DNA of 22,446 nucleotides from Oscillospiraceae bacterium (GTDB lineage Bacteria > Bacillota_A > Clostridia > Oscillospirales > CAG-272). Made by a program: the position numbers and the translations under genes. The stretch covers positions 1-22,446 of the forward strand of contig SVSO01000020.1 in NCBI GenBank assembly GCA_015064195.1, written 5' to 3'. This document shows positions 3,983-18,304 of the stretch, piece by piece. The stretch's first letter is position 1; every line of letters starts with the position of its first letter. Below the pieces are notes generated by a model. The model made no database searches. It was given only the letters and a program-made list of their open reading frames with translations, and was not told the DNA's origin.

Positions 3983-4011
3983 CCGCAGAGCGTATGCTCT
4001 GCGGATTTTTT
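3983..4011 (+). terminator. intrinsic terminator after the secreted protein gene
   Basis: CCGCAGAGC (3983-3991), loop GTAT, GCTCTGCGG (3996-4004), then ATTTTTT. The 9-base stem is perfect. The T-run is on the plus strand only, and it overlaps the stop codon of the convergent AraC gene by two bases. Confidence 0.93.
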
Positions 4012-4813
4012 ATATCAGCCGCAGCTTGCGGTATTTCTGGGGTGTTTCGCCGTATTTCATTTTGAATCGACGAGAGAAGTAGAATTGGTCGCAGAAGCCA
4101 AATCGCTCGCTGATCTGCAGGATCGTCAGGTCACTCTTCAAAAGCAGCTGTTCCGCTTCAAACAGGATGGCATCGTCGATATAGCTGCCGATGGTCATGC
4201 CCACCTCGCTCTTGAATTTTTTCGCCAGCGTGCTTTCGGATACAAACGCGCTGGCCGCCAGCTCACCGATTCCAAGCTGGAGAGACAGATGGGTCTTGAT
4301 GTATTCGATGGCCAGCAGCACGCATCGGGAAAAGCACACCGATTCCAGATTCACCCGATATTTGTCCACCATGGTCAGAATGGTAGAATAAATCTCCTGC
4401 CGGAGCATGAGACCGTCGTACAGATTCTCGCTTTCGGAATAGCGGATCAGATCAGCAATCTTTTCCGTGCCAAGCTTGTACTGCATGATATTCTTACAGC
4501 TGCGGAACAGATCGGTGCCATTATAATCGGTGAGATTTACGTGAAAAAACAGCTGCTCCATGGAGGTTTCGCAGGCGTAGCGGAAGGAGAAGCCGGTGGG
4601 GATGAGATAGCAGAAGCCCACCTCCAGCGGGATACGGGTATCGCCCAGCATGATGTAGGGATCACCGGCGACAATATAGTAAAGCCGCGTATAGGGCGGC
4701 GATACGATATTGCCCACCCACTCTTCTTTGGATTTTGCGTGTCCGCACTCGATCAGTCTCAGCTGGATATCATTGATGTTGTCGAGCATGGTGTAATTTG
4801 TGTTGATGATCAT
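4010..4813 (-). CDS. AraC family transcriptional regulator 2
   Basis: 267 residues starting MIINTNYTMLDN, with TATGGAGATT upstream. The cupin-like sensor spans roughly residues 40-95 (LYYIVAGDPYIMLGD, GFCYLIPTGFSF). The C-terminal pair of helix-turn-helices comprises LGIGELAASAFVSESTLAKK and LTILQISERFGFCDQFYFSR, then TPQKYRKLR. It is a paralogue of regulator 1 along its whole length. It is divergent from the alpha-L-fucosidase, its probable target. The direct repeat CCGAAATCT in the intergenic region is the best binding-site candidate. The ligand is unknown; a fucose-containing glycan or breakdown product is only a guess from context. Confidence 0.92.
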   Translation of the reverse strand: MIINTNYTMLDNINDIQLRLIECGHAKSKEEWVGNIVSPPYTRLYYIVAGDPYIMLGDTRIPLEVGFCYLIPTGFSFRYACETSMEQLFFHVNLTDYNGTDLFRSCKNIMQYKLGTEKIADLIRYSESENLYDGLMLRQEIYSTILTMVDKYRVNLESVCFSRCVLLAIEYIKTHLSLQLGIGELAASAFVSESTLAKKFKSEVGMTIGSYIDDAILFEAEQLLLKSDLTILQISERFGFCDQFYFSRRFKMKYGETPQKYRKLRLI

Positions 4814-4816
4814 AAT

Positions 4817-4849
4817 TTACCGAAATCTCCATATTTTTTGCCGAAATCT
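4817..4849. promoter_or_regulatory. AraC-type direct-repeat operator upstream of the fucosidase
   Basis: TTACCGAAATCT (4817-4828) and TTGCCGAAATCT (4838-4849) match at 11 of 12 bases with a period of 21 bases, two helical turns. The distal copy ends 3 bases before -35. Between and across them lies copy 2 of the 18-bp element AAATCTCCATATTTTTTG (4823-4840). This is the geometry expected of AraC-family activator half-sites. Confidence 0.75.
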
Positions 4850-4852
4850 AAC

Positions 4853-4881
4853 TTGCATCGGCGAAACGGCTGGATTATAAT
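4853..4881 (+). promoter_or_regulatory. promoter of the alpha-L-fucosidase gene
   Basis: TTGCAT (4853-4858), 17-base spacer, TATAAT (4876-4881). The -35 is imperfect, as expected for an activator-dependent promoter. Spacing to the 18-bp element equals that at 2920-2948. Confidence 0.8.
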
Positions 4882-4965
4882 GAATACAGGGTTGTTTCTA
4901 TATATATGATACACCCAAAATGCAAGAATTGCAAGAGATTTTTTTAAAATTCGGGAGGATTTTTT

Positions 4966-6282
4966 ATGTCAAGCTACAAAGTGCGCAAAACCCCCGGCGA
5001 TACCGTCTGGTTCCGCCACGACCGTTTCGGTATGTTCATCCACTGGGGACTCTACGCCATGCCCGCGCGTCATGAGTGGATCAAGACCCGCGAATTCATC
5101 ACCGAGGAAAAATATGACCTTTACTTCAAACATTTCAATCCCGATCTTTACGATCCGAAGGAATGGGCGCGTCAGGCGAAAGCGGCCGGCATGAAGTATG
5201 CGGTGCTGACCACCAAGCATCACGAGGGCTTCTGTATGTGGGACAGCGCATACACCGACTACAAATGCACCAACACCCCCGCAGGCCGCGATCTGGTGCG
5301 CGAATATGTGGACGCATTCCGCGCCGAGGGACTTCGCGTAGGCTTCTACTATTCCCTCATCGACTGGCATCATCCGGAATATCCCATCGACCGCAACCAT
5401 CCCCGCCGCAGAGATGAAGATGCCCGTGAGAAAAACAAGACCCGCGACATGAAGAAATACGCGAAATATATGCGCGATCAGGTGACGGAGCTGCTGACCA
5501 ATTACGGCAAGATCGACATTCTCTGGTTCGATTTCTCCTATCCCTCCGCGCCGGATGCAGGCGATGATCCTCAGAAGATCGGCAAGGGCAAGGATGACTG
5601 GGAGGCGGAGGAGCTGATCGCCACCGCACGCGCCATCAATCCCGACATCATCATCGACAACCGCACACAGATCGAGCAGGATCTCTGGACGCCCGAGCAG
5701 TATCAGCCAAGCGAATGGGTGAAGGATTCCGAGGGCAATCTGGTCACATGGGAAGCCTGCCAGACCTTCTCCGGCTCATGGGGCTATCATCGGGACGAGC
5801 AGACATGGAAATCCCCGGAAATGCTCATTCAGATGCTCATCAACACCGTTTCCATCGGCGGCAATCTGCTGATGAACGTGGGCCCCACCTCCCGCGGATA
5901 TCTGGATTACCGCGCAGAGGCAGCGCTGAAGACCTACGCCGACTGGATGAAATACAACAGCCGCTCCATCTACGGCTGCACCATGGCTGAGCCGGAGCTG
6001 CGGGCACTTTGTCCGGGCGGCTGCAAATTCACCCAGAGCGAGGACGGTTCCCGCCTGTATGTGCATCTGTTCGATTATCCCTTCCAGTTCCTTGAGCTGC
6101 CGGGCTTTGCCGGCAAGGTGGAGTACGCGCAGTTCCTCCACGACGGCAGTGAGATCCTGTTCACCGAAAAGGTGGAGCATTTCAGCGAAGGAAAAACGCA
6201 GTGCGACAATCTGCTGGTTCTGCGCCTTCCTGTCGTCAAGCCGCCGTTCATCGTTCCCGTTATCGAGCTCATCCTCAAATAA
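4966..6282 (+). CDS. alpha-L-fucosidase, GH29
   Basis: 438 residues, ribosome site GGGAGG. It starts straight into the GH29 barrel: RFGMFIHWGLY (His26-Trp27-Gly28), then TTKHHEGFCMWDS (from residue 82), where the paired His bind fucose. ILWFDF follows, with Asp189 as predicted nucleophile, then IDNRT and GGNLLMNVGPTSRG near residue 300. It hydrolyses terminal alpha-L-fucosyl linkages by a retaining mechanism. The acid/base residue differs between GH29 subfamilies and I do not assign it. There is no signal peptide, so it should act in the cytoplasm on imported fucosylated oligosaccharides. It is a single-gene transcript with an upstream AraC-type operator and a terminator. Confidence 0.95.
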   Translation: MSSYKVRKTPGDTVWFRHDRFGMFIHWGLYAMPARHEWIKTREFITEEKYDLYFKHFNPDLYDPKEWARQAKAAGMKYAVLTTKHHEGFCMWDSAYTDYKCTNTPAGRDLVREYVDAFRAEGLRVGFYYSLIDWHHPEYPIDRNHPRRRDEDAREKNKTRDMKKYAKYMRDQVTELLTNYGKIDILWFDFSYPSAPDAGDDPQKIGKGKDDWEAEELIATARAINPDIIIDNRTQIEQDLWTPEQYQPSEWVKDSEGNLVTWEACQTFSGSWGYHRDEQTWKSPEMLIQMLINTVSIGGNLLMNVGPTSRGYLDYRAEAALKTYADWMKYNSRSIYGCTMAEPELRALCPGGCKFTQSEDGSRLYVHLFDYPFQFLELPGFAGKVEYAQFLHDGSEILFTEKVEHFSEGKTQCDNLLVLRLPVVKPPFIVPVIELILK

Positions 6283-6288
6283 ACCGAG

Positions 6289-6322
6289 GGGAGCTGCACA
6301 AACGTGCAGCTCCCGCTTTTAT
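6289..6322 (+). terminator. terminator after the fucosidase gene
   Basis: GGGAGCTGCAC (6289-6299), loop AAAC, GTGCAGCTCCC (6304-6314), then GCTTTTATT. It is an 11-base perfect stem between convergent genes. The minus-strand side has only a weak T-run (CTCGGTTTATTT), so it may terminate the phosphodiesterase transcript less well. Confidence 0.9.
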
Positions 6323-7107
6323 TCTTCAAAAATCGCGTGTTCGCCTTCCATGCGGGCATCGCCGGGACGCAGTGTCCACACGAATCGCCCCGCATGATAC
6401 AGCTCCGCCGCAATGCGGACGGGAATTGCGCGCCGCTCAGCCTTGTCATAGGCGATGAAATCCGGCTTCGCGAGGAAGTTGAATGCCATCAGCGTGAGCA
6501 GGATGTTGAGGAGCGTGGTCTTTTTCTTCGCCTTGCAGACGTTGGTGTACAAAAGGCCGATGTATGCATCCGGCAGACGCTTTTTCATGGCGTGGAGCAG
6601 CATCGGATTGAAGGATTCGATGCAGTACGGGCCATGATAGCGGGACAGAAGCTCCGCCGCACGGTCACACAGCGCCGTATCCATGCTCTCGCCCTTCAAT
6701 TCCACGAGGATCGGCACGCGGCCGTTCACCAGCGAAAGCACCTCCGACAGCTGGGGAATATGCTCCGCCGTGCCATAAAGTCTGAGGTCGAACAGCACCG
6801 CCGCCGTCTGCTCCGACAGCTTCACATTGTATCCCGTCATGCGCAGGAGCGTGGGGTCGTGGAACACCATCACCGCGCCGTCCGAGGACAGCTGAATATC
6901 AAGCTCAATGCCGTATCCCGCTTCGCACGCCGCAGAAAATGCCGCCAGCGAATTCTCCGGCGTTTCCCGGGAATGGAGTCCCCGGTGCGCATAATCGCAG
7001 AGCAGGCGGGTATCCGTGGGAATCCGCGACGCAGGCTTGATGAAATACAGGAAATATGCCGCGATCAAAGCGACAAGGATCACCAGAAAAATTACCAGAA
7101 CTATCAT
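6319..7107 (-). CDS. membrane-anchored glycerophosphodiester phosphodiesterase
   Basis: 262 residues. Residues 1-23 are one hydrophobic helix (MIVLVIFLVILVALIAAYF), followed by a GDPD barrel: HRG at 41-43, PENS at 50-53, ELD at 68-70 and HD at 83-84. These are the metal and catalytic residues of the family (His41, Glu68, Asp70, His83). Further on are VPILVELKG and CIESFNP. It should cleave glycerophosphodiesters to glycerol-3-phosphate and an alcohol, at the membrane. The start codon directly abuts the stop of the MFS gene, with GGAGGA inside that gene's end, so the two are one transcriptional and probably translationally coupled unit. Confidence 0.92.
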   Translation of the reverse strand: MIVLVIFLVILVALIAAYFLYFIKPASRIPTDTRLLCDYAHRGLHSRETPENSLAAFSAACEAGYGIELDIQLSSDGAVMVFHDPTLLRMTGYNVKLSEQTAAVLFDLRLYGTAEHIPQLSEVLSLVNGRVPILVELKGESMDTALCDRAAELLSRYHGPYCIESFNPMLLHAMKKRLPDAYIGLLYTNVCKAKKKTTLLNILLTLMAFNFLAKPDFIAYDKAERRAIPVRIAAELYHAGRFVWTLRPGDARMEGEHAIFEE

Positions 7108-8490
7108 CTATTCCTCCACATCCAGATGCTCTAAAATGCTCTTCTTTTCGATGGGCTTTGCATCGCCGTGACGCACCATCAGCATGGTGACGAATGCGCC
7201 CGCAACGAAGATCGCCGCATAGGGGAACAGGGTCTCCATGCCCACATAGGTGAGGAAAATTCCGCTCACCATGGGCGTGATGATCTGCGCCGCCATGCTG
7301 GCTGTGTAGTAGTAGCCGGTGTATTTGCCCACATCGCCGGCACTTGCCAGCTCAACGGCCATGGGATAGCTGTTGACATTGATGGTCGCCCAGCCGATGC
7401 CCGCCAGCGCAAAGAGAATGTTCATTACGATCGCATTGCTTCCCTCCCGCATGAAGGCGGCGCAGGTGAAGGCGATGCCCAGCATGACGACACCCGCGAG
7501 GATGGTCTTTTTGCGGCCCAGCTTCTGAGAGATGATGCCAACGGGGATGTAGGAGAGGATGGCCGCGCCCTGTGCCACGATGAGGGTCATGTTGAAGTCC
7601 AGCTTGAGCACTTCGCCGGCGTAGACGGAATATTTGCTCGTCACCGCGTTGTAGCCCATGTACCAGAGCACCACCGATGCGAGGATGAAGAAAAGCGACC
7701 GCCGTTCCTCCTTGGTAAGGCCGCGCTTTTCGCTCACCGTCTCCGTCTTCGGCTCATCGGCAAGCGTGTCGTTGATGGCATCCGCCTCCTTCGCCCACGG
7801 CTTTTCTTTGACAGTGAGCATGAAGATCACCAGCGCCGTCAGCATAACCGCCGATGTCACAGCGAAAAATCCGGTGTAGCTCATCAGCGCATTCTCCGGC
7901 TTGCCCGTGCCGAATGCAATGCCCAGCACCAGCACTAAAATGCCGCCGAAGGTGCCCATGAGATTGATCATGGCGTTGGCCTTGGAGCGGAGAGGGCGGG
8001 GCGTCACGTCGGGCATGAGAGCCACTGCCGGTGAGCGGAACAGTGCCATTGCCAGCAGGACGAGGAACAGCAGTGCCATGAAAATGACGAGCGCGGTGGG
8101 ATTTTCCGCCGTCAGGGATGCGGCGACTGCCTGACGCGCCTCGGTATCGGTCATCTCCATTGCCCCTGCAGCCGCCAATGCATTCCGCTGGAGATTGTCG
8201 GCGATGGAAAGTCCGATAAAAATCACCGATGCGGCGATGGTGCCGACGAGGATGAAAGGAGTGCGACGGCCGAGTCTGCCGTTATGCTTGTCCGACAGTG
8301 CGCCGAACAGGGGCAGAAGCACCACGGCAAGGATGTTGTCCAGTGCCATGATCGCGCCCGACCAGAACTGTGATAAACCGAATTTATCAGTGAGGATTTT
8401 GGGGACGATGCTGTCGTAAGCCTGCCAGAATGCCATGATGGCGAAGAAGGCAAAGCCCACCAGCAGTGTCCGTTTGTAGTTGAGCTTCAT
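7108..8490 (-). CDS. MFS transporter (GPH/SLC45-like)
   Basis: About 460 residues from ATG 8490 (MKLNYKRTLLVGFAFFAIMA), which has GGAGGTTTTT upstream. The frame stays open further 5' but crosses the promoter. Twelve hydrophobic segments are evident, with a long charged central loop (KEKPWAKEADAINDTLADEP) between halves. The signature FGALSDKHNGRLGRRTPFI after helix 2 is the MFS loop motif. The N-terminal IVPKILTDKFGLSQFWSGAIM pattern resembles sugar carriers of the SLC45/GPH type. The substrate is not identifiable. Being cotranscribed with a glycerophosphodiesterase, it could serve glycerophosphodiester or sugar uptake, but that is inference. Confidence 0.88.
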   Translation of the reverse strand: MKLNYKRTLLVGFAFFAIMAFWQAYDSIVPKILTDKFGLSQFWSGAIMALDNILAVVLLPLFGALSDKHNGRLGRRTPFILVGTIAASVIFIGLSIADNLQRNALAAAGAMEMTDTEARQAVAASLTAENPTALVIFMALLFLVLLAMALFRSPAVALMPDVTPRPLRSKANAMINLMGTFGGILVLVLGIAFGTGKPENALMSYTGFFAVTSAVMLTALVIFMLTVKEKPWAKEADAINDTLADEPKTETVSEKRGLTKEERRSLFFILASVVLWYMGYNAVTSKYSVYAGEVLKLDFNMTLIVAQGAAILSYIPVGIISQKLGRKKTILAGVVMLGIAFTCAAFMREGSNAIVMNILFALAGIGWATINVNSYPMAVELASAGDVGKYTGYYYTASMAAQIITPMVSGIFLTYVGMETLFPYAAIFVAGAFVTMLMVRHGDAKPIEKKSILEHLDVEE

Positions 8491-8521
8491 AAAAACCTCC
8501 GCGGATTCACATAATACTATC

Positions 8522-8550
8522 ATTATATCATGTTTTGTCTGAATAATCAA
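8522..8550 (-). promoter_or_regulatory. promoter of the MFS-phosphodiesterase operon
   Basis: On the minus strand, TTGATT (8550-8545), 17-base spacer, TATAAT (8527-8522) with an extended TG before the -10. It gives a short leader to the start at 8490. Confidence 0.82.
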
Positions 8551-8594
8551 TAAAAATTTCAAAATTCTTTTGTTTCGTTCGGGAATATTAGCAA

Positions 8595-8623
8595 TTGAAT
8601 GATTCTTCGGTTTATGATATAAT
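8595..8623 (+). promoter_or_regulatory. promoter of the AEC transporter gene
   Basis: TTGAAT (8595-8600), 17-base spacer, TATAAT (8618-8623), with TG at 8615-8616 (extended -10). It is divergent from the MFS promoter; about 45 bases separate the two -35 elements. Confidence 0.82.
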
Positions 8624-8650
8624 ATTAACATACACATTTGGGAGGTTTCT

Positions 8651-9556
8651 ATGTTTATCACTGTCTTTGAGCAGGTGCTCCTGCTCTTCATTTTCGCCAT
8701 CGCCGGTTATACACTGGCAAAAACCGGGCTTGTAAAATCCGAGCATTCCAAAATTTTATCAACACTGCTGGTCTATCTTTTCCTGCCCTGCAACGTCATC
8801 AAAACCTTCAATCAGAACTTCACCATTCCCTATATCACCAAACGCTTTGACCTGATCCTCGTCTCCATCATTCTGCTGGCTGTCCTGATGATCGTCACCG
8901 AGATCATCGTCCGGCTCATCGAAAAGGAAAAATACCGTCAGACTGTCTACCGCTATTCCCTCATCATCCCCAACATCGGCTACATGGGCTGGCCCTTCAT
9001 CGGTGCGCTCTGGGGCGATGAAATGATGCTGTCGGCCATGATCTTCTGCCTGCCGCTCCACATCTATATCTACACCTACGGCTATGCGGCGCTGACCAAG
9101 GGTGGGCTCAATCTGAAGACCCTGCTCAATCCCACAGTTATTTCGCTGGTTGTTGGCATCATCCTCGGCCTCACCGGTATTAAGCTGCCCGAATTCGTTC
9201 TCACCGCCATGGATAAGAGCAGTGCGTGCATGGCACCGGTCAGCATGATCCTCGCCGGCATCGTCATCTCGGAATACAAGCCGAAGGAGATCCTGAAGGA
9301 TTGGCGTGTCTGGCTTGTCACCGCGCTCCGGCTCATCGTGTTCCCCTTCGCCATCGGCCTTGCCGCGCGTCCCTTCGTCAGCACCGAAGTGCTGGCCGTC
9401 GCGGTCGCACTGGCTGCCATGCCCTGCGGACTCAACACTATCGTTTTCCCCCGCCTTGTGGGGGAAGACTGCAAGCCCGGTGCCGCACTGGGACTCATCT
9501 CCAACATCCTTGCCTGCGGAACGATCCCGCTGTGCATTACAGTTTTGTTATCATAA
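8651..9556 (+). CDS. AEC (auxin efflux carrier) family transporter
   Basis: 301 residues, GGGAGG ribosome site. About ten hydrophobic helices fall into two halves. The first half has AGYTLAKTGLVKSEHSKILST and LVYLFLPCNVIKTF, the typical AEC start. The second has MAPVSMILAGIVISEYK, LRLIVFPFAIGL and AAMPCGLNTIVFPRLVGED, the family's second-half signature. Bacterial AEC members move small organic anions such as malate or malonate. The substrate here is unknown. The serine hydrolase follows 18 bases downstream, so both are likely cotranscribed. Confidence 0.9.
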   Translation: MFITVFEQVLLLFIFAIAGYTLAKTGLVKSEHSKILSTLLVYLFLPCNVIKTFNQNFTIPYITKRFDLILVSIILLAVLMIVTEIIVRLIEKEKYRQTVYRYSLIIPNIGYMGWPFIGALWGDEMMLSAMIFCLPLHIYIYTYGYAALTKGGLNLKTLLNPTVISLVVGIILGLTGIKLPEFVLTAMDKSSACMAPVSMILAGIVISEYKPKEILKDWRVWLVTALRLIVFPFAIGLAARPFVSTEVLAVAVALAAMPCGLNTIVFPRLVGEDCKPGAALGLISNILACGTIPLCITVLLS

Positions 9557-9574: not shown

Positions 9575-10653
9575 ATGCTGGAAAAACTCGATTCTCTCCT
9601 CGACAGCTTTGCCGGAATCGGCGTGCCGTCCTTCGACTGCCTTGTGTATCATCACGGAAAGCCCGTTTACCGCCGGATGCACGGCTTCTCGGATTATGAG
9701 AAGCAGACGCCCATCTGCGGCAATGAGCGTTATTTCATCTACTCCTGCTCCAAGCCCATCACCGTTACCGCCGCGCTGACACTTTACGAAAAGAAGCTGT
9801 TCGATCTCGACGACAAGCTGTCCGATTATCTGCCGGAATTTGCCAATATGACCGTGCGCGACGGCGATACCGTGCGCCCGGCCGAGGGTGCCATCACCAT
9901 CCGTCAGCTGTTCACCATGACCGCCGGCTTCACGTACAATCTCGGCTCGGCCAATCTGAAGGATGGCATCGCGGCAACCGGCGGCAAGGCTCTCACCCGC
10001 GAGATGATGAAATATCTGGCAAAAGATCCCCTCGCCTTCGATCCCGGTGCGCGATTTGAATACAGCCTCTGCCACGATGTGCTGGCGGCGCTGGTGGAAG
10101 TGCTCTCCGGCATGAAATTTGGCGATTACGTAAAGAAAAACATCTTCGATCCGCTGGGCATGAAGGATTCCACCTTCTGTCTGCCTGTGTCGGACTACGA
10201 CACCCTCTGCGCCCAGTACCGGTCAATGCGCAGACAGCGGAATTTGAAAACTTCGGACGAAAAAACGGCTATATTCTGGGCGCGGACTATGCCAGCGGCG
10301 GCGCGGGCTGTGTATCCTCGGTGGAGGATTACATCCGATTCCTCGAAGCCCATCGCACCGACGCGATTCTCCGCCCGGAGACCCAGCGGCTCATGACCAC
10401 CAATATGCTGACGGAGGAGCAGGCTGTGACCTACGGACTCAAAGCCAACGGCTACGGCTACGGACTTGGCGTGCGCTGCCCCGTTGACCGCACCCGCGTC
10501 TCCGACTTTGGATGGGGCGGTGCAGCTGCGGCGTTCCTCGTCTGCGACAAGGAAGCGGACGCGACCCTGTATTATGCCCAGCACGTTCTTGGCTCACCCA
10601 ATCAGGACAAGCGCATCCAAATGGCGGCTATCCTGCGCGATGCATTTGTTTAA
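9575..10653 (+). pseudogene. beta-lactamase-fold serine hydrolase with a one-base frameshift
   Basis: Reads MLEKLDSLLDSFAGIGVPSF with a GGAGG ribosome site. The nucleophile motif SCSK is at residues 57-60, and the second catalytic Tyr is probably Y163 (FEYSLCHD). The frame is good to about residue 216 (TLCAQYR). Near 10221-10226 (cggtcaatg) one base is missing, and the protein continues in the other frame: NAQTAEFENFGR, NGYILGADYASGGAG, VEDYIRFLEAHR, GYGLGVRC, SDFGWGGAAAAF, to a stop at 10651-10653. As it stands the first frame ends at 10396 with about 57 wrong residues. Restoring one base gives about 359 residues, normal for class C-like esterases/peptidases (PF00144). It could be a true pseudogene, phase variation or a sequencing error. 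Confidence 0.9.
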
Positions 10654-10658
10654 TGACA

Positions 10659-10694
10659 AGCGAGACTCTACTTTCCGTAGAGTCTCGCTCGTTT
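10659..10694 (+). terminator. terminator after the serine hydrolase
   Basis: AGCGAGACTCTAC (10659-10671), loop TTTCC, GTAGAGTCTCGCT (10677-10689). The 13-base stem is perfect and is followed by CGTTTC, a weak T-run. It sits 5 bases after the hydrolase stop. Confidence 0.78.
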
Positions 10695-10732
10695 CATTCC
10701 GCCATTCCACCAAATATTTCTTCTCAGCGTAG

Positions 10733-10781
10733 GTTTACTTTGTCACAATATTATGATAAAATGAAAGTAGATCAAGTAAAC
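10733..10781. promoter_or_regulatory. inverted repeat flanking the promoter of the sugar operon
   Basis: GTTTACTT (10733-10740) overlaps the -35. Its exact reverse complement AAGTAAAC (10774-10781) lies downstream of the -10, just before the ribosome site. The arms are about 41 bases apart centre to centre, roughly four helical turns. The first gene of the operon has an XRE-type DNA-binding domain, so looping or double-site autorepression is plausible. Confidence 0.55.
10734..10762 (+). promoter_or_regulatory. promoter of the HTH-kinase operon
   Basis: TTTACT (10734-10739), 17-base spacer, TAAAAT (10757-10762) with TG at 10754-10755 (extended -10). CGGAGG follows just before the start codon at 10793. 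Confidence 0.72.
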
Positions 10782-10792
10782 GGAGGATTTCT

Positions 10793-12016
10793 ATGGATAC
10801 CTACACCATTGGCAGCACCATTGCCAAGCTGCGAAAAAAGAGCGGCATGACGCAGCTGTCCCTCGCTGAACAGCTCAATGTCAGCGACAAGGCGGTCAGC
10901 AAGTGGGAGAACGGTCAGGGATACCCTGACATCACCCTGTTTCCCACCATCGCATCCCTGTTCGGCGTCAGCATCGATTATCTGATGACCGGCGAGAAAA
11001 AGAGCATCACCATCGCCGGCAATATGCTGGTGGACATCGTCAAAAACATCGATGATTATCCCAAAGTCGGCACACTGGCCAACATCCACGAGATCGACAA
11101 AGCGGTTGGCGGATGCGCCGCCAATACCCCCATCGATCTTGCCATCATCGACCACAGCGTTCCCATCCATGTGCTGGGCAAGGTGGGCATGGACGAAAAC
11201 GGACGGTACATCATCTCCAAGCTCCAGTCCCACGGCATCAACACCGACGGCATCAGCTACTCCACCTCCATGGGCACCAGCTTCTCCGATGTGATGAGTA
11301 TGCCCACCGGTGAGCGCACCTTCTTCCATCAGAGAGGCGCAAATGCAGAATTCGCCCCCTCCGATATCAATCTTGACAGGCTGGACTGCGAGATTCTGCA
11401 CATCGGCTACATTCTCCTGCTGGACAAATTCGATGCGCCGGATAAGGTTTACGGAACGGTCATGGCCCGCTTTCTCCACGATGCGCAATCCCGCGGCATC
11501 CGCACCTCCATCGATGTTGTCAGCGCCAACACCGATGATTACGACCAAAAGATCATCCCCGCGCTCCGCTACTGCAACTTTGCCATCATGAACGAGATCG
11601 AAGCGACCGCCACATGGAAGCTGCCCGCTCGTCGTGCCAATGGAAAAATCCACCGGGAAAATGTCCGCCTTGCCATGCAGAAAATGGCGGTGGCAGGCGT
11701 CAAGGATAAGATCATTGTCCACGCAAAGGAGATGTCCTTCATCCTCGATGTGGCGACCGGCGAATTCGACGAGGTTCCGTCGCTGAAGATCCCCGCGAAG
11801 GAGATCATGGGAAGCGTTGGAGCCGGCGATGCATTCTGCGCAGGCTGCCTCTACGGACTTTACAACAACTACGCCGACAAACAGATCCTGGAATTCGCAT
11901 CCGCCGCTGCCGCCTGCAACCTTTTTGCGGCGAACTCGGTGGACGGTATGCGCTCCCGCAATGAAATTTTGCAGCTGACCGGAAAATACGGCAGACTGAA
12001 TTTGGAGGAATTATAA
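10793..12016 (+). CDS. XRE-type HTH fused to a PfkB-family sugar kinase
   Basis: 407 residues. Residues about 5-62 are a complete XRE/Cro helix-turn-helix: IAKLRKKSGMTQLSLAEQLN, then VSDKAVSKWENGQGYPDI. After a short junction (YLMTGEKKS), a PfkB kinase runs from ITIAGNMLVDIVKNID at residue 71. It has the substrate-side signature KAVGGCAANT (from 103) and the catalytic GSVGAGDAFCAG at 340-351, with Asp346 as predicted base. Both halves look intact, so the protein may phosphorylate a sugar and sense it to control its own operon, as ROK-type proteins do in a different kinase family. The substrate (fructose, xylulose or similar) is inferred from neighbours. The stop overlaps the next start (TAATG). 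Confidence 0.92.
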   Translation: MDTYTIGSTIAKLRKKSGMTQLSLAEQLNVSDKAVSKWENGQGYPDITLFPTIASLFGVSIDYLMTGEKKSITIAGNMLVDIVKNIDDYPKVGTLANIHEIDKAVGGCAANTPIDLAIIDHSVPIHVLGKVGMDENGRYIISKLQSHGINTDGISYSTSMGTSFSDVMSMPTGERTFFHQRGANAEFAPSDINLDRLDCEILHIGYILLLDKFDAPDKVYGTVMARFLHDAQSRGIRTSIDVVSANTDDYDQKIIPALRYCNFAIMNEIEATATWKLPARRANGKIHRENVRLAMQKMAVAGVKDKIIVHAKEMSFILDVATGEFDEVPSLKIPAKEIMGSVGAGDAFCAGCLYGLYNNYADKQILEFASAAAACNLFAANSVDGMRSRNEILQLTGKYGRLNLEEL

Positions 12017-12552
12017 TGAAACGTGAAATCTATGAAAGACAAGTAAGAGCCGCGCTGGAACTGTATGATAAGGCCGGCATTGTTCTGACCGATGCGGAAA
12101 AAAAGAACATTGAGGTGGTCGATTTTGAGATCGGCATCGTCAACGAAGTGGGGCTCCAGCTGCTGACTTACATCAACACCGAGCGTGTTTGCGCCAAGGA
12201 AATGGTGCTCCTGCCCGGCCAGACCTGCCCCCAGCACAAGCACGTGCCCACAAACGGTATGCCCGGCAAGGAAGAAACCTTCCGCTGCCGCTATGGTAAG
12301 GTTTATCTGTACGTCACCGGCGAGGGCGACAAGGACAAGATCGGTGCGAAAATGCCCAAAACCGACGTGGACGTGTTCCATGAGATCATCCTGAATCCCG
12401 GCGAGCAGTACACCATCTATCCGGAAACGTGGCACTGGTTCCAAGCCGGTGAGGATGGCGCAGTCATCTCGGAATTTTCCACCAGAAGCACCGACGAGAC
12501 AGATGCCTTCATTGATCCCCGTCTGGTACGCAAAGTAAAGATCGAAGACTGA
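12016..12552 (+). CDS. D-lyxose/D-mannose ketol-isomerase (YdaE-like cupin)
   Basis: 178 residues, ribosome site TTTGGAGGA. Single-domain cupin of the D-lyxose isomerase family. Predicted metal ligands are His74 and His76 (CPQHKHVP), Glu87 (GKEETFRC) and His140 (PETWHWFQ), in the expected order and spacing. Characterised members interconvert D-lyxose with D-xylulose and, usually more slowly, D-mannose with D-fructose, using a divalent metal. Length matches the short YdaE-type members. Start overlaps the kinase stop by one base. With a beta-mannosidase in the same operon, mannose-to-fructose conversion is the attractive role; lyxose-to-xylulose is the alternative. Confidence 0.9.
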   Translation: MKREIYERQVRAALELYDKAGIVLTDAEKKNIEVVDFEIGIVNEVGLQLLTYINTERVCAKEMVLLPGQTCPQHKHVPTNGMPGKEETFRCRYGKVYLYVTGEGDKDKIGAKMPKTDVDVFHEIILNPGEQYTIYPETWHWFQAGEDGAVISEFSTRSTDETDAFIDPRLVRKVKIED

Positions 12553-12588
12553 TCACAAAACAGACATATTTTTTAAAGAGGAATTACC

Positions 12589-13413
12589 ATGTTAGTTACC
12601 ATGAACGAAATCCTGCCGAAAGCGCAGGCAGAACACTACGCGGTCGGACTTTTCAATGTGCTCGACACCAGTATGCTTCAGGCGGCCATCGAAGCCGCAG
12701 AGGAAGCAAGATCCCCCATCATCATCGGCACGGCTGAGGTGCTTTGCACACCCGCGGAGATGGAGCTGCTTGCCCCGGCCATGGTGAACGCCGCCAAACG
12801 CGCATCGGTTCCGGTGGCCGTCCATTATGACCACGGCCTCACCTATCAGAGATGCGTGGATGCGCTCCGTCTGGGCTTCTCCAGCATCATGTTCGACGGC
12901 TCTGCCGGCGATCCCGCGGAAAATCTCGCCGCCACCCGCGAAATGGTGAAGATCGCCCATTCCTTCGGATGCTCCGTTGAAGGCGAGATCGGCCACGTGG
13001 GTACCATCGGCGCGGATGAAAGCACCAGCGACAACTACACCACCCCCGAAGAAGCGGTGGATTTCGTGAAAGCCACCGGTGTGGATGCGCTGGCCATCGC
13101 CATCGGCACGGCTCACGGTGCATACAAAACCAAGCCCAAGCTGGACGTGGAGCGTCTGTCCGCAATCCGTGCGGCTCTCGATACGCCGCTGGTGCTTCAC
13201 GGCGGCTCCGGTCTGACCGATGACGATTTCCGCGGCACCATCGCACGGGGCATCACCAAGGTCAACATCTACACCGACCTGTGCAATGCCGCCGAAAAAG
13301 CGACGAATGCCCTCTCCGGCCCCTATTTTGACATCCGCAGACAGATCGTCGATCAGGTCAGACAGGCCATCCTTGGTAAGATGGAGCTGTTCGGATCGGT
13401 CGGCAAAGCATGA
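12589..13413 (+). CDS. class II (zinc) ketose-bisphosphate aldolase
   Basis: 274 residues, ribosome site AAAGAGG. It has the class II pattern: HYDHG at 79-83 (Asp81 catalytic, His82 zinc), VEGEIGHVG, IGTAHGAYK (zinc His), LHGGSGL (zinc His) and KVNIYTDL at the phosphate site. It resembles the FbaA/GatY/KbaY/AgaY group. These cleave fructose- or tagatose-1,6-bisphosphate, and some relatives act on ketose-1-phosphates, giving dihydroxyacetone phosphate. It lies 36 bases after the isomerase and 24 before the mannosidase, so it is in the same operon. The exact substrate cannot be set from sequence by eye. Confidence 0.92.
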   Translation: MLVTMNEILPKAQAEHYAVGLFNVLDTSMLQAAIEAAEEARSPIIIGTAEVLCTPAEMELLAPAMVNAAKRASVPVAVHYDHGLTYQRCVDALRLGFSSIMFDGSAGDPAENLAATREMVKIAHSFGCSVEGEIGHVGTIGADESTSDNYTTPEEAVDFVKATGVDALAIAIGTAHGAYKTKPKLDVERLSAIRAALDTPLVLHGGSGLTDDDFRGTIARGITKVNIYTDLCNAAEKATNALSGPYFDIRRQIVDQVRQAILGKMELFGSVGKA

Positions 13414-13437
13414 CTTTGATTGCAAGGAGGATGCAGC

Positions 13438-15774
13438 ATGGATAAGAAAGTTCTCACCCTCGATGGAAGCTGGAAATTCAGCTTTACCTTCGACAATAAG
13501 CAGTATCAGGCCGAAGCTCCCGTTCCCGGCAATGTGGAGCCTGTGCTTCAAAAGCTGGGGCTGGTGGATGATTATCTCCCCGCAGACAGCATTTACGCCA
13601 CAGAGCAGTTTGACACCGTGGACGACTGGACCTACACCACCACCTTCGATCTTCCCGAGCTTGCAGAGGGCTGGAAGCGTGAGCTGGTATTCGACGGCAT
13701 CGACACCATCGCCGAGATCTACTTAAACGGCGAAAAGCTGGGCGACTGCGAAAATATGCATATGCAGTACCGCTTCGACATCGCGGACAAGTGTAGATCC
13801 GCCGGCAACGAGCTGACCGTCGTCATCCGCAGTGTGGATCTGTGGTCACGCGCCCATTCCCGGGACGAATTCGGTATGCCCCACGGCGGCATGGGCTTTT
13901 ACGATTCCCAGACCTATGTGCGCAAGGCCCGCCATCAGTGGGGCTGGGACAATGCGCCCCGTCTCATCACCTCCGGCATCGTCCGTTCTGTCACGGTAGA
14001 GGATCTGCCGCCCAAGCGCTTCACCGATGTGTATGTTTACACCAACGCTGTGAGCGAGTCCACGATCAGCATGGGCATCTCCTACAACTATCTGACGGAT
14101 GCGCCCTCTCTGCGGGATCTCACCCTCCGCGTTTCCATGCTGGACGGCGAGGAGATCCTTCACACGGCCAGCCATCACTCCTATTTCACTCAGGGCCTGC
14201 ATCGTCTCTCCCTCGGCCGTGACAAATTCAAGCTCTGGTGGCCGTCGGGCTACGGTGAGCCGCAGCTGTACACCATGCGCCTCGAAATGCTGGAGGGCGG
14301 CGAAGTGACCGCTGTTTATGAGACAAAGGTGGGTCTGCGCACGCTGAATACCATCCACACCAACGACATGGATGCGGACGGAAACGGCGAATTCGTATTC
14401 CTCGTCAACAACGAAAAAGTCTTCATCCGCGGCGCAAACTGGAAGCCTCTGTCTCCCATGGCATCCGAGGCCGACGTGCGCACACGGGAAGGCAAAGCCC
14501 TCGCTGAGCTGACCAACCTCAACTGCAACATGGTGCGCATCTGGGGCGGCGGCATCTACGAGGACGAAGCATTCTTCGATTACTGCGACAGCCACGGCAT
14601 CATGGTATGGCAGGACTTCATGTTCGCCTGCGAGATCCCGCCTACGGATGAAGCATTCTGCCGCCTTGTATCGAAGGAAGCAGTGCAGATCATCAAAAAG
14701 CAGCGCAATCATGCATCCATGGCCATCTGGTGCGGTGACAATGAGAACGACCAGAATCTCGGCGGATGGGGCTCGGCCATGAGCAATCAGCGGCCCTCCC
14801 ATTCGGTCATCAGCCGCCGCATTCTCCGCGACGCGGTGCTGCATTTCGATCCCTATCGGGATTATGTGGACAGCTCCCCCGTTTATTCCGACGAATACGC
14901 CGCTCTGCGCGGCAAGGACGGCCGCTATCCCACGGAAATGCATCTCTACCCCAACTCCCTCACCTTCGGCGATTCTCTGCGGAACTGCCGCTCCAAGCTC
15001 ATCGGCGAGACCGGCCCCATCAATTTCAACGCCATCGCGCCGAATGACGCCATCTATGAGCGGGAAAAGGCACGCATGGAGCGTCTGTGGGATTCCCCGT
15101 GGCTCGGCTCCAACGGTGCGCATCAGAACGACGGCTATTTCACTGTATGGCGCAATACCGGCAAGGATAACTGTCTGCGCCGCTACGGACGGGACTTCAC
15201 CTTCGCTGAGTGGAAGGATTATACCCTCGCCATCAACATCATCTGCGCGGAGATCTTCAAGGATGTCCTCGAATACAGCCGCATCGTCAAGTGGTCGAAA
15301 ACCGGCATCATCTGGTGGTCGCTCTACGATATGTGGCCCATGGCGTTCAACTATTCGGTCATCGACTGCGACGGCAATTACAAGCTGCCCGCACACTGGA
15401 TCCGCCAGTCCCAGCAGGCATTTCTCCTCGCCGCATCGCGGGTGGAGATCGGCGGCGAGATGTCCCTCTACGCCGCAAACGATACGCTGACCGATCACAA
15501 GGTGAGCTACACCGTCACCGCCTACGGAAGCGACTGCCAGCCCCGCACCATCGCATCGGGCATTGTTTCGCAGACGAAAAATTCCACCAGCCTCATCCAG
15601 CGCATCGCCGAGCCGGAATCCCCCGAGCTGTGGATCATCCGTTGGGAGGAGGACGGCAAGGTTTCCTACAACCACGCCTTCACCGGCTGGACAGCATATG
15701 AGACTATGCGCGAATGGGTGAAGATCATCGGCCGCGAGTGCGGATTCCTTGACGGTATTCTGGAGCTGAAATAG
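13438..15774 (+). CDS. beta-mannosidase-like glycoside hydrolase, GH2
   Basis: 778 residues from ATG 13438, with AAGGAGG seven bases upstream. The N-terminal sugar-binding jelly roll begins LDGSWKFSF and includes ELVFDGIDTIAEIYLNGEKL. An Ig-like domain follows, then the TIM barrel: IRGANWKPL, NMVRIWGGGIYEDEAFFDYC, IMVWQDFMFAC. Predicted acid/base is Glu436 in WCGDNEN, and the predicted nucleophile is Glu524 in LIGETGP. These motifs match beta-mannosidases. No signal peptide, so it probably cleaves imported beta-mannosides, for example N-glycan core Man-beta-1,4-GlcNAc or mannan oligomers, in the cytoplasm. Last gene of the operon. No clear hairpin follows; only 76 bases separate it from the convergent AraC gene. 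Confidence 0.92.
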   Translation: MDKKVLTLDGSWKFSFTFDNKQYQAEAPVPGNVEPVLQKLGLVDDYLPADSIYATEQFDTVDDWTYTTTFDLPELAEGWKRELVFDGIDTIAEIYLNGEKLGDCENMHMQYRFDIADKCRSAGNELTVVIRSVDLWSRAHSRDEFGMPHGGMGFYDSQTYVRKARHQWGWDNAPRLITSGIVRSVTVEDLPPKRFTDVYVYTNAVSESTISMGISYNYLTDAPSLRDLTLRVSMLDGEEILHTASHHSYFTQGLHRLSLGRDKFKLWWPSGYGEPQLYTMRLEMLEGGEVTAVYETKVGLRTLNTIHTNDMDADGNGEFVFLVNNEKVFIRGANWKPLSPMASEADVRTREGKALAELTNLNCNMVRIWGGGIYEDEAFFDYCDSHGIMVWQDFMFACEIPPTDEAFCRLVSKEAVQIIKKQRNHASMAIWCGDNENDQNLGGWGSAMSNQRPSHSVISRRILRDAVLHFDPYRDYVDSSPVYSDEYAALRGKDGRYPTEMHLYPNSLTFGDSLRNCRSKLIGETGPINFNAIAPNDAIYEREKARMERLWDSPWLGSNGAHQNDGYFTVWRNTGKDNCLRRYGRDFTFAEWKDYTLAINIICAEIFKDVLEYSRIVKWSKTGIIWWSLYDMWPMAFNYSVIDCDGNYKLPAHWIRQSQQAFLLAASRVEIGGEMSLYAANDTLTDHKVSYTVTAYGSDCQPRTIASGIVSQTKNSTSLIQRIAEPESPELWIIRWEEDGKVSYNHAFTGWTAYETMREWVKIIGRECGFLDGILELK

Positions 15775-15850: not shown

Positions 15851-16735
15851 TCATTCACCGCCTGTTCCATCGTTCCGGTGGTTCAGGCGGTATTCGCCCG
15901 GCGATTCACCGGTATGTGCGCGGAACACGCGGAAAAAGGTGCGCACACAGTCATAGCCGACCACGGACGAAACAGCTTCCACGCTGTCATCGGTGGTCTG
16001 GAGCAGCCGCGTTGCCTCTCGGATGCGCAGGGTATCGATGTATCGCTTGACGCCCACGCCCGTTTTTGCGGTGAACAGCTTGGACAATGCGCTCTGGGAA
16101 TAACCGAACATCCGGCAGAGCTGCTCCGTATTCAGCGCGGGATTGTTGTAGTTGGAATAGATATATTTCATAATATTCACATCCGCATAGGCGCATTGTG
16201 CATCCACCAGCGATTCGGCCATGCGGTCATAGCACAGGGCCATAATAGAACCGGCAAGCAGATTCAGCCGCGGGAGATACGTTTTATCCCGCGGCATTTC
16301 CATTGGGGCAGAGCCGTTGGGCAGATTTTCAAGATGGGGGATCTTCCGGTAGATCCGGTACAGCTCCGTGACCAAGGCCGTGATGATGCCGCCCTCGTCG
16401 CGGATCGCCTCCCCCGGTGTCTGACCGATGCCGAAGCTGAGGGATGGCGGCAGACAGTTCGGCGGCAGATAGGCGAGCCACTGCATCGCGTCCACCTTCA
16501 GAACATCGTGAATCACGCCGCTGTTGATGATCAGGAATTCGCCCGCATTTACGGTTATTTCCCGGAATTTGCGCGCGCCGTCGTACAGCCCCACCACGGA
16601 TTTTCCCGAAAGAAGCATCAGAAGCTCGATATTGTAATGCATATGCTGCTTGGAATAATGATTCGGCGTTCCCGCTCCCGGAAAACACACCGGTATGCTG
16701 TAGCTGTCCCGCATCGGCTCATAGTTCCAATCCAT
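15851..16735 (-). CDS. AraC family transcriptional regulator 3
   Basis: The start at 16735 (MDWNYEPMRDSY) is preferred because AAAGGAGA is 6-7 bases upstream. A further ATG five codons earlier contains that site. About 294 residues. The cupin sensor has HMHYNIELLMLLSGKSVVGL and AGEFLIINSGVIHDV. The C-terminal double helix-turn-helix has LNTEQLCRMFGYSQSALSKL and VEAVSSVVGYDCVRTFFRVF, ending SPGEYR. It is not close to regulators 1 and 2. It is divergent from the solute-binding protein gene, with overlapping promoters and a direct repeat between them, so it very likely controls that gene and itself. Confidence 0.92.
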   Translation of the reverse strand: MDWNYEPMRDSYSIPVCFPGAGTPNHYSKQHMHYNIELLMLLSGKSVVGLYDGARKFREITVNAGEFLIINSGVIHDVLKVDAMQWLAYLPPNCLPPSLSFGIGQTPGEAIRDEGGIITALVTELYRIYRKIPHLENLPNGSAPMEMPRDKTYLPRLNLLAGSIMALCYDRMAESLVDAQCAYADVNIMKYIYSNYNNPALNTEQLCRMFGYSQSALSKLFTAKTGVGVKRYIDTLRIREATRLLQTTDDSVEAVSSVVGYDCVRTFFRVFRAHTGESPGEYRLNHRNDGTGGE

Positions 16736-16750
16736 AGCGTCTCCTTTCAT

Positions 16751-16781
16751 AAATTGTCATAATTGAAATGCAAACTGTCAT
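16751..16781. promoter_or_regulatory. AraC-type direct repeat between araC-3 and the solute-binding protein gene
   Basis: AAATTGTCAT (16751-16760) and AAACTGTCAT (16772-16781) match at 9 of 10 bases with a 21-base period. The second copy touches the plus-strand -35 and also lies at the start of the minus-strand araC-3 transcript. Binding could thus activate the lipoprotein gene and block araC-3. Confidence 0.78.
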
Positions 16782-16809
16782 TGCAATTATACCATTTTTG
16801 CGCTATAAT
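16781..16809 (+). promoter_or_regulatory. promoter of the solute-binding lipoprotein gene
   Basis: TTGCAA (16781-16786), 17-base spacer, TATAAT (16804-16809). It lies directly after the AraC-type repeat. Confidence 0.85.
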
Positions 16810-16814
16810 GTCAA
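16786..16814 (-). promoter_or_regulatory. promoter of araC-3, superimposed on the lipoprotein promoter
   Basis: On the minus strand, TTGACA (16814-16809), 17-base spacer, TATAAT (16791-16786), with extended -10 TG: a full consensus promoter. Its -10 overlaps the opposing -35 by one base and its -35 overlaps the opposing -10 by one base, so both cannot be occupied at once. Confidence 0.88.
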
Positions 16815-16846
16815 TAGCAGAAGAAAATTTATAAAGGAGAATGCAT

Positions 16847-18304
16847 ATGAACAAGTCAACCATCCGCTTTCTGACAGCCATTCTGGCACTCAGCCTGACC
16901 TTCGGCATTGGTACATCCTGCGGCGGCGATGCACCGGTTTCCGGTGACACCACGACGACCGTTGCAGCAGAGACTGCCGATCCCAACGCACCGGATATTC
17001 CCGATGATCTCAATTTCGGCGGCAAAACAGTCAATATCTTTAACTTTGACTCCGGATCATGGAACAATCAGCTCGTCGCCGAATCCCAGAACGGTGAGGT
17101 TCTCAATGATGCCATTTACGCGGCACAGATTGCAGTTGAGGAGCGGCTGAATGTCACCCTTTCGGAATACCGTGGGGAAGGCGACTGGTCAGGCGCGTTT
17201 TCCGAGGCGCAGAAGATACTCGCCGCAGGTGACGATGCCTACCACATCTACTTTCAGGTAGACCGCAATGCACTCATCATGGCACAGGAAGGCTACCTCG
17301 AACCTTTGCAGAATATGCCTTATGTTGACCTCGACCGCGAATACTGGGCACAGTCGGTCAATCACGACCTCTCTATCGCCGGCAATCTTTACTTCTCTTA
17401 CGGTGACTTCAATCTGACCGGCTATGAGTGTGTAAATGCGCTGCTGGTCAATAAATCTATGATCACCGACTTCGGCCTCGGCAATCATTACGACATGGTT
17501 CTCGACGGCTCCTGGACGCTCGATGTGATGAACAACAATATGCTGACTGTCGCACAGGATCTCAACGGTGACAACAAGTACGATGATCAGGACCGCTACG
17601 GCATCACCTCGCACAACAAGCAGGTTCTCCCCAACTTCTGGATCGCGGCAGGTCTCCGCTCCATTGAGAAGAATGATGAAGACCTCCCGGTATTTGCACT
17701 CCCCGGCAACGAGGCCTTCGCAGTGCTCTACGACCGTATCCTCAGCATGATGTATGACAATCCTGTCTACTTCAACTCCAAAGTGTATCCGGATTACGCC
17801 AACAACACGCTCTTCATAAACGGTCAGTCTCTCTACAACATTGTCCGTATTGCATTTATGAGATTCTACCGCGATATGGACTACGACTACGCGATTATTC
17901 CATATCCCAAGGCGGACAAAGCACAGACGGATTACTACAGCCGTTTTGAGGGCGGTGCCGTCAACTTCACGCCCAAGCTCTGCGTGGATAAGGAGCTTGC
18001 CGGTGCTGTCATGGAGCAGATGGCTTATGAATATCAAAAAACCGTTATACCCGCGTATTACGATGTCGTACTCAAGAACAAGTACACACGCGATGAAAAA
18101 TCCGTTGAAATGCTGGATATCATCTACGAGAACCGTATTTGCGATCTGGGTGATACCATTTGGTCGAATGCCATCCGTGATGGCGTATTTGCCGGAAAAT
18201 TTGATAGAAACGACCGCAATCTCCAGAGCACCATTTCCTCTATGACACCCAAGGTGGAAAACACGATCAGTCAGGCAATCGAAGCATTCAACGCCATCGA
18301 ATAG
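16847..18304 (+). CDS. extracellular solute-binding lipoprotein, orphan
   Basis: 485 residues. The ATG at 16847 is chosen over 16841 because AAAGGAGA ends directly before the latter. The signal peptide is MNKSTIRFLTAILALSLTFG, with a probable lipidated Cys25 (GIGTSC, a non-ideal lipobox) and a Thr-rich linker. The mature part starts FGGKTVNIFNFDSGSWNNQL, then NDAIYAAQIAVEERLNVTL, typical of a large clostridial family of carbohydrate-type solute-binding proteins. No permease or ATPase gene is adjacent, so it must share a transporter encoded elsewhere or act as a binding or sensing protein. Regulated by AraC regulator 3, by inference from the shared intergenic region. No hairpin follows; the phosphoesterase promoter lies directly after its stop. 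Confidence 0.88.
   Translation: MNKSTIRFLTAILALSLTFGIGTSCGGDAPVSGDTTTTVAAETADPNAPDIPDDLNFGGKTVNIFNFDSGSWNNQLVAESQNGEVLNDAIYAAQIAVEERLNVTLSEYRGEGDWSGAFSEAQKILAAGDDAYHIYFQVDRNALIMAQEGYLEPLQNMPYVDLDREYWAQSVNHDLSIAGNLYFSYGDFNLTGYECVNALLVNKSMITDFGLGNHYDMVLDGSWTLDVMNNNMLTVAQDLNGDNKYDDQDRYGITSHNKQVLPNFWIAAGLRSIEKNDEDLPVFALPGNEAFAVLYDRILSMMYDNPVYFNSKVYPDYANNTLFINGQSLYNIVRIAFMRFYRDMDYDYAIIPYPKADKAQTDYYSRFEGGAVNFTPKLCVDKELAGAVMEQMAYEYQKTVIPAYYDVVLKNKYTRDEKSVEMLDIIYENRICDLGDTIWSNAIRDGVFAGKFDRNDRNLQSTISSMTPKVENTISQAIEAFNAIE

Follow-up and report, generated by a model that had tools for sequence, protein, structure and literature searches.

The E. coli proteins YdjH and YdjI act on ketose-1-phosphates, and animal fructolysis consists of ketohexokinase and aldolase B. 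Sugar kinases that are also regulators occur in the ROK family and among E. coli YeiI-type proteins, and mannose and fructose in anaerobes are usually drawn as entering glycolysis via hexose-6-phosphates or FruK. Described here is a gene cassette from a 22,446-nucleotide stretch of an Oscillospiraceae genome (contig SVSO01000020.1, assembly GCA_015064195.1; hereafter the window), which encodes a PfkB-type kinase fused to an XRE-type helix-turn-helix (HTH) domain, a D-lyxose/D-mannose-type isomerase, a class II aldolase and a GH2 protein. It may constitute a local, self-regulated catabolic unit in which mannose is converted to fructose, phosphorylated at C1 and cleaved by the aldolase under the control of an XRE operator, a reading that we regard as evenly balanced between right and wrong.

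Among the closest described systems is the YdjH/YdjI pair. These are the best PDB sequence matches of the kinase (3h49/3in1) and the aldolase (6ofu), and YdjI, like the window aldolase, has Cys where the TDLR Arg would be. In the window cassette, however, the pair comes with an isomerase of lyxose/mannose type and the kinase carries an XRE domain, and longer acidic sugars are not indicated. If the proposed reading is right, the cassette would resemble animal fructolysis in using a PfkB-type kinase and in a cleavage of fructose-1-phosphate type that needs no phosphofructokinase, while differing in its class II aldolase, putative mannose-feeding isomerase and HTH fusion. The isomerase is like the group 1 D-lyxose isomerases (2y0o, 7nzo) in sequence and in eight active-site residues, but sits in a kinase-aldolase cassette. 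As in ROK and YeiI-type proteins, the kinase domain lies behind an N-terminal HTH; here, however, the HTH is of XRE type on a PfkB domain, the catalytic residues are kept and the predicted operator is common to several species. No description of the cassette, of the swapping of its feeder genes or of the HTH-operator pair was recognised in the titles and abstracts of the papers listed by searches of open-access text. The enzymes themselves belong to families already known.

Composition and conservation of the cassette

Open reading frame (ORF) calls and Pfam confirmed the four genes and domain annotations of the original prediction, which had been made from the sequence of the window (Table 1). 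The kinase harbors HTH_3 (residues 10-64) and PfkB (residues 72-379; PF00294, 98.7 bits), the isomerase matches Lyx_isomer at 33.2 bits (cut-off 20.8), the aldolase matches F_bP_aldolase at 302 bits and the fourth gene contains GH2 domains. The GH2 ORF opens at a TTG (13420), with an alternative ATG start at 13435 that is preceded by AGGAGG. The computations given below directly show the gene content, the conserved order, the intact active sites, an aldolase that has lost the TDLR Arg and the association of the palindrome with the fused HTH.

A contig scan with 20 aligned kinases returned 403 relatives, and locus counts below cover the best 80. These lie mainly in metagenome-assembled genomes (MAGs) of Clostridia or Oscillospiraceae, many titled as ruminant gut, and L080 bears the title Lentisphaerae. 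On the kinase strand and no more than about 6 kb away, an aldolase is present in 44 of the 80 loci, a short- or long-type lyxose isomerase in 41 and both in 31, while kinase, short isomerase and aldolase are immediately consecutive in 26. Conserved co-occurrence of the four genes, which had been put forward as a check, thus holds for the kinase-isomerase-aldolase order and not for the GH2 gene, which is an occasional extra rather than a constant member of the cassette. When the sample was drawn by the isomerase instead (23 of 295 genomes, one order; flanks of up to 1.5 kb), six genomes had a kinase of the same family (at least 55% identity), five another PfkB-type match (25-33%) and six an aldolase. 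At L106:4253-6846, a cassette isomerase (69%) and aldolase (63%) are preceded by a different PfkB kinase (25%), an apparent kinase displacement.

Close GH2 homologues follow the cassette in L001 (three copies), L004 and L008 (without isomerase), and distant ones in L003, L017 and L044, that of L017 again matching 9nfe and beta-mannosidases best. The window GH2 would be a beta-mannosidase by similarity and by two putative catalytic Glu residues: it scores 320.7 bits against 9nfe, whose title names no substrate, and 267.2 bits against the beta-mannosidase 5n6u, and, counting from the ATG, its E437 and E525 fall opposite Ala in PDB 9npn and Gln in 9np9, respectively, as expected for acid/base and nucleophile mutants. 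A search of open-access text by PDB codes found no paper on 9nfe or its relatives.

A predicted operator accompanies the fused kinases

The XRE-PfkB fusion of the original prediction stands, but the operator predicted for the fused HTH had been missed. Reading the regions upstream of fused kinases revealed a palindrome and a promoter (Table 1), the palindrome being the sole match with up to two mismatches in the window. Across the fused loci, TAGGTTTAC or TAGGTTGAC surrounds the -35 element, with 17 bp to the -10 element in nearly every locus. At least 9 of the 12 palindrome positions are matched upstream of 32/36 fused kinases (window included) vs 1/43 unfused ones, and at least 10 upstream of 22/36 vs 0/43; background 200-base stretches from the same loci reach at least 9 in 232 and at least 10 in 20 of 5952 cases. 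The -35 motif (8 of 9 positions) follows the same division (26/36 fused, 0/43 unfused). These counts were made without L034 and L044, which have less than 150 bp of upstream stretch, and place among the unfused L053, whose match starts at residue 21 (probably a broken HTH), and L036, whose HTH is perhaps a separate ORF.

Palindrome and motif are separated by 53-56 bp in 11 loci or by 62-66 bp in 20, and never by 57-61 bp (32 loci, including the outlier L006 at 104 bp). The two spacing classes differ by roughly a helical turn, which a DNA-bound protein would be expected to produce. The 53-56 bp class is partly one clade, joined by L002, L009, L011, L023 and L028, and the best site of L013 and L016 shifts when the upstream stretch is taken as 230 instead of 200 bp. 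Where the aldolase is placed separately, upstream of the kinase (L029, L031), the palindrome precedes both genes. In 29/35 loci no other site of the locus scores higher than the palindrome upstream of the kinase, and L008 has a second site (11/12) inside its GH2 gene. Exact palindromes number 8 in 7/21 genomes, all 8 located at the cassette by coordinate comparison; a control pattern (reversed, not complemented) also yields 8 exact sites, in 6/21 genomes, so it is the placement of sites that is raised and not their number.

A hold-out scan located the kinase in 31/391 genomes of the class. Nine of its 32 matches were taken, by handle or coordinates, as loci already in the set and 23 were examined; leaving out the duplicates L169, L172 and L175 gave 20 new regions, 10 fused and 10 unfused. 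The palindrome (at least 9) is present in 8/10 fused regions and the -35 motif in 10/10, with spacings of 53-56 or 63-65 bp, vs 0/10 and 1/10 in unfused regions. The unfused exception, L171, carries the motif at 8 of 9 positions upstream of its own best palindrome.

In the window the palindrome forms the core of a 13-pair hairpin (10659-10689) just past the upstream ORF, where a second role as terminator is therefore possible, and across loci its flanks are A-rich on the left and T-rich on the right. That it is a terminator or RNA hairpin in place of an operator is nonetheless highly improbable in our view: its letters are conserved while the outermost pair varies without compensation, it is nearly absent from unfused kinases, it sits upstream of the promoter at spacings one helical turn apart, and in L029 and L031 a copy stands ahead of the aldolase gene, which is placed separately there. 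The palindrome is the predicted operator of the fused HTH, and the fused kinase probably regulates its own operon.

Kinase and aldolase

The GAGD motif and E270 are kept in 40/40 aligned kinases, and the structure model (predicted local distance difference test, pLDDT, 92.4) has a ribokinase fold. In the fold search ribokinases come at the top, YdjH is third and YihV (7ag6), a sulfofructose kinase, eleventh, and ketohexokinase is absent among the 50 matches listed. The protein has a weak PRK09954 match and no NCBIfam equivalog at or above cut-off. The XRE-PfkB architecture is not peculiar to the window: 5458 database proteins match at E <= 0.001 among 7997 candidates scored, and both domains are present in the 120 proteins listed among these matches. 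A different HTH-sugar kinase fusion, of a MerR HTH and an FGGY kinase, lies near the cassette at L001:4139-5875.

In the aldolase D81, H82, H176 and H204, which we take to be the catalytic Asp and three His, are each conserved in at least 90% of 39 rows. The Arg of the TDLR stretch, which binds the C6 phosphate in fructose-1,6-bisphosphate (FBP) aldolase and is visible in the Thermus aquaticus enzyme (1rv8), is found at the last TDLR position in 0/38 readable rows (window included; L028 is cut), the window protein having Cys as in YdjI. Its absence favours a ketose-1-phosphate as substrate. The protein belongs to class II (PF01116) and scores above the cut-off of subfamily TIGR00167, but lies under the cut-offs of the FBP-aldolase equivalogs and lacks the Arg that marks an FBP aldolase.

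Production of fructose-6-phosphate by the kinase, with the aldolase either using a different sugar phosphate or following a second kinase, would agree with the MtlD-like dehydrogenase, which is present beside 10/80 kinases and never shares a locus with the aldolase, as the MtlD family interconverts mannitol-1-phosphate and fructose-6-phosphate. Given an aldolase without the TDLR Arg and closest to YdjI, and no second kinase as a constant neighbour, we consider this quite unlikely. Nor do we expect the same isomerase-kinase-aldolase logic to serve a modified sugar (sulfofructose, a uronate or a heptose) in the manner of sulfoglycolysis, a reading that we place as very unlikely. YihV and YdjH are among the fold matches of the kinase, and YdjH/YdjI act on longer acidic sugars, but no sulfonate-pathway gene was recognised among the sampled neighbours scanned and the glycosidase is a GH2, not the GH31 that is the usual sulfoquinovosidase.

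Isomerase and alternative feeder genes

The isomerase groups with the group 1 D-lyxose isomerases (B. subtilis 2y0o, 1.6e-57; TsLI 7nzo, 3.4e-55). The intact metal ligands of the original prediction were borne out: eight cupin metal and substrate residues, as named for the Thermofilum enzyme TsLI in PMC8378251 and mapped by sequence alignment, are invariant in 35/35 aligned rows. That paper attributes the low activity of TsLI on mannose (<2%) to R175, which also has its equivalent in the E. coli enzyme, yet the latter uses mannose. In the isomerases of the cassette the corresponding R172 is likewise invariant (35/35). For every lyxose isomerase tabulated in PMC6746899 the mannose/lyxose kcat/Km ratio is under 1 (0.0165-0.8607), with E. 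coli at 0.7529. The isomerase alone is indecisive between hexose and pentose, because the specificity Arg is kept and the E. coli enzyme with the same Arg uses mannose.

Around kinases of the same tree, other genes stand in for the short isomerase. A long PF07385 isomerase replaces it in, e.g., L066, L077 and L079; at L066, from the cultured Herbinix hemicellulosilytica, the long isomerase, kinase and aldolase are accompanied by ABC transporter and two-component genes. Elsewhere a PIG-L deacetylase and a NagB-like protein are encoded beside the kinase (NagB-like in 8/80 loci), following a kinase-aldolase pair in L033 and L035; L159, whose kinase is 69% identical to that of the window, shows PIG-L/NagB-like genes to be convergent neighbours of this pair. 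Aldolase and MtlD-like genes share 0/80 loci (Fisher p 0.00015, uncorrected for kinship). The GH32 protein of L023, which shows NDPNG, FRD and ECP motifs, begins 86 bp past the aldolase, and at L001 a weaker GH32/GH43-like protein without NDPNG is encoded upstream of the kinase.

In NagB the phosphate is held by a PTGGTP stretch. This stretch is missing from the NagB-like family, in which NMDE and the HIAF-EP region are retained, and on that account the family may act on free glucosamine; its structure model (pLDDT 53.9) was of no use. PIG-L together with the divergent NagB-like protein without PTGGTP was observed at L064:5333-11000, L071, L033, L054 and L159, sometimes with a GFO/IDH/MocA oxidoreductase and an MtlD-like protein in addition, and this module may itself serve the use of amino sugars that are not phosphorylated.

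For most of the feeders D-fructose is a better fit than D-xylulose, and it is the simplest common sugar, xylulose fitting the isomerases only and perhaps the dehydrogenase. NagB-like with PIG-L, MtlD-like and the one GH32 agree with D-fructose. The fructolysis-like ketose-1-phosphate logic of the original prediction is supported, and its lyxose/xylulose alternative is weakened. In that pentose version D-lyxose would be isomerised to D-xylulose and the 1-phosphate cleaved to dihydroxyacetone phosphate (DHAP) and glycolaldehyde under the same regulation. The tabulated kcat/Km ratios and the counterpart of R175 of the nearly lyxose-specific TsLI speak for it. With xylulose, however, the neighbouring PIG-L/NagB-like and GH32 genes would be meaningless, the GH2 resembles beta-mannosidases and free lyxose is rare in nature; we therefore rate the pentose version as unlikely. 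Xylulokinase, above cut-off in 10/21 vs 5/20 genomes, is of no use as a marker against it.

Proposed pathway and its weighing

For the favoured mannose-to-fructose reading, GH2 would free D-mannose inside the cell from beta-mannosides and the isomerase would convert a manno/lyxo aldose, most likely D-mannose, to the ketose, D-fructose. The PfkB domain would then phosphorylate the ketose at C1, and the class II aldolase would cleave the ketose-1-phosphate to DHAP and an unphosphorylated aldehyde (D-glyceraldehyde). The kinase-fused XRE domain would bind the palindrome and so couple the kinase to its own promoter, as repressor or activator, and perhaps also contact a GTAGG half-site at the -35 element. 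The parts that we infer are phosphorylation at C1, the role of D-fructose as hub sugar, binding of the HTH to DNA and whether regulation is positive or negative.

More broadly, the family may form a bacterial fructolysis hub, widespread in gut Clostridia, in which free D-fructose from interchangeable feeders (mannose isomerase, amino-sugar deacetylase with NagB-like protein, fructosidase) is phosphorylated by a C1 kinase that regulates its own operon and then split into DHAP and glyceraldehyde, species having in common an operator in helical phase. We offer this tentatively, as somewhat short of an even chance.

Several observations count against the proposed pathway, besides the kept R172. 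The route had been proposed to bypass mannose-6-phosphate isomerase (PMI); as a cell lacking that enzyme this is rejected, since a PMI type I (ManA-like) match occurs in 17/25 genomes with the kinase locus and in 14/19 with isomerase and aldolase beside the kinase, in MAGs that may be incomplete, and the route would therefore be an addition and not a replacement. Nor is it self-contained as had been suggested, as there is no conserved gene for glyceraldehyde and GH2 is optional; glycerate kinase is not enriched (above cut-off in 8/21 cassette genomes vs 5/20 without the isomerase). None of the tested partners accompanies the kinase in 17/80 loci, some through contig ends, and the lead of ribokinases in the fold search is of little use for choosing a substrate. 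The GH32 case is a single locus, no homologue of the L023 protein occurring elsewhere in the 80 loci (E <= 1e-5). Beside the kinases of L039 and L042 stands a fucose-isomerase-like gene, so the substrate may differ in some branches. Furthermore, gene neighbours and trees are non-independent samples. The kinase tree was built without L038, L051, L053 and L066, which carry a stop in the matched stretch. The arrangement at L039:3555-6309 and L042 is an HTH-fused kinase followed by a protein with a fucose-isomerase C domain and a zinc-type dehydrogenase, isomerase and aldolase being replaced.

Features and neighbouring genes of the window

Table 1. Features of the cassette and its upstream region, in window coordinates.
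Feature	Position	Strand	Remarks
Predicted operator, palindrome CTCTAC-N5-GTAGAG	10666..10682	.	exact match
Conserved TAGGTTTAC element	10730..10738	+	
Promoter, -35 TTTACT and -10 TAAAAT	10734-10739; 10757-10762	+	17-bp spacer
Ribosome-binding site GGAGG of kinase gene	10782..10786	+	sequence
XRE-PfkB fusion kinase	10793..12016	+	407 aa; HTH 10820-10984, PfkB 11006-11929
Short (group 1) cupin D-lyxose/D-mannose-type isomerase	12016..12552	+	178 aa ORF
Class II aldolase, YdjI-like, without TDLR Arg	12589..13413	+	274 aa ORF
GH2, beta-mannosidase-like	13435..15774	+	no apparent signal peptide; optional cassette member

Upstream of the cassette, 9575-10653 encodes a beta-lactamase-family serine hydrolase (PF00144) in two frames (9575-10396 and 10321-10653), with the look of a frameshift or assembly error; its nearest NCBIfam match is methyl acetate hydrolase. 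Further upstream, 4010-9556 contains an AraC-type regulator, a GH29 alpha-L-fucosidase (4966-6282), an MFS-type sugar transporter and a membrane transport protein, and is perhaps a separate glycan-use region.

Downstream, an AraC-type regulator gene (15851-16750) is preceded on the minus strand by a perfect TTGACA-17-TATAAT (16753-16814), near which an opposed promoter-like site faces 16841. The 487-aa protein of 16841-18304 has a lipoprotein or solute-binding look by eye and matched no Pfam family; a 31% homologue adjoins a lyxose-isomerase gene in L108.

Significance

If the proposed pathway is true, the cassette would be a recurrent exception to the usual drawing of mannose and fructose entry in anaerobes, the ketose being cleaved ahead of phosphofructokinase. 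The fusion would furthermore represent a PfkB-based counterpart of the ROK regulators, an apparently active sugar kinase with its own DNA-binding domain, and its operator was predicted in one genome set and recovered in others. An enzyme's own sensing would thereby become addressable with one protein and one DNA fragment.

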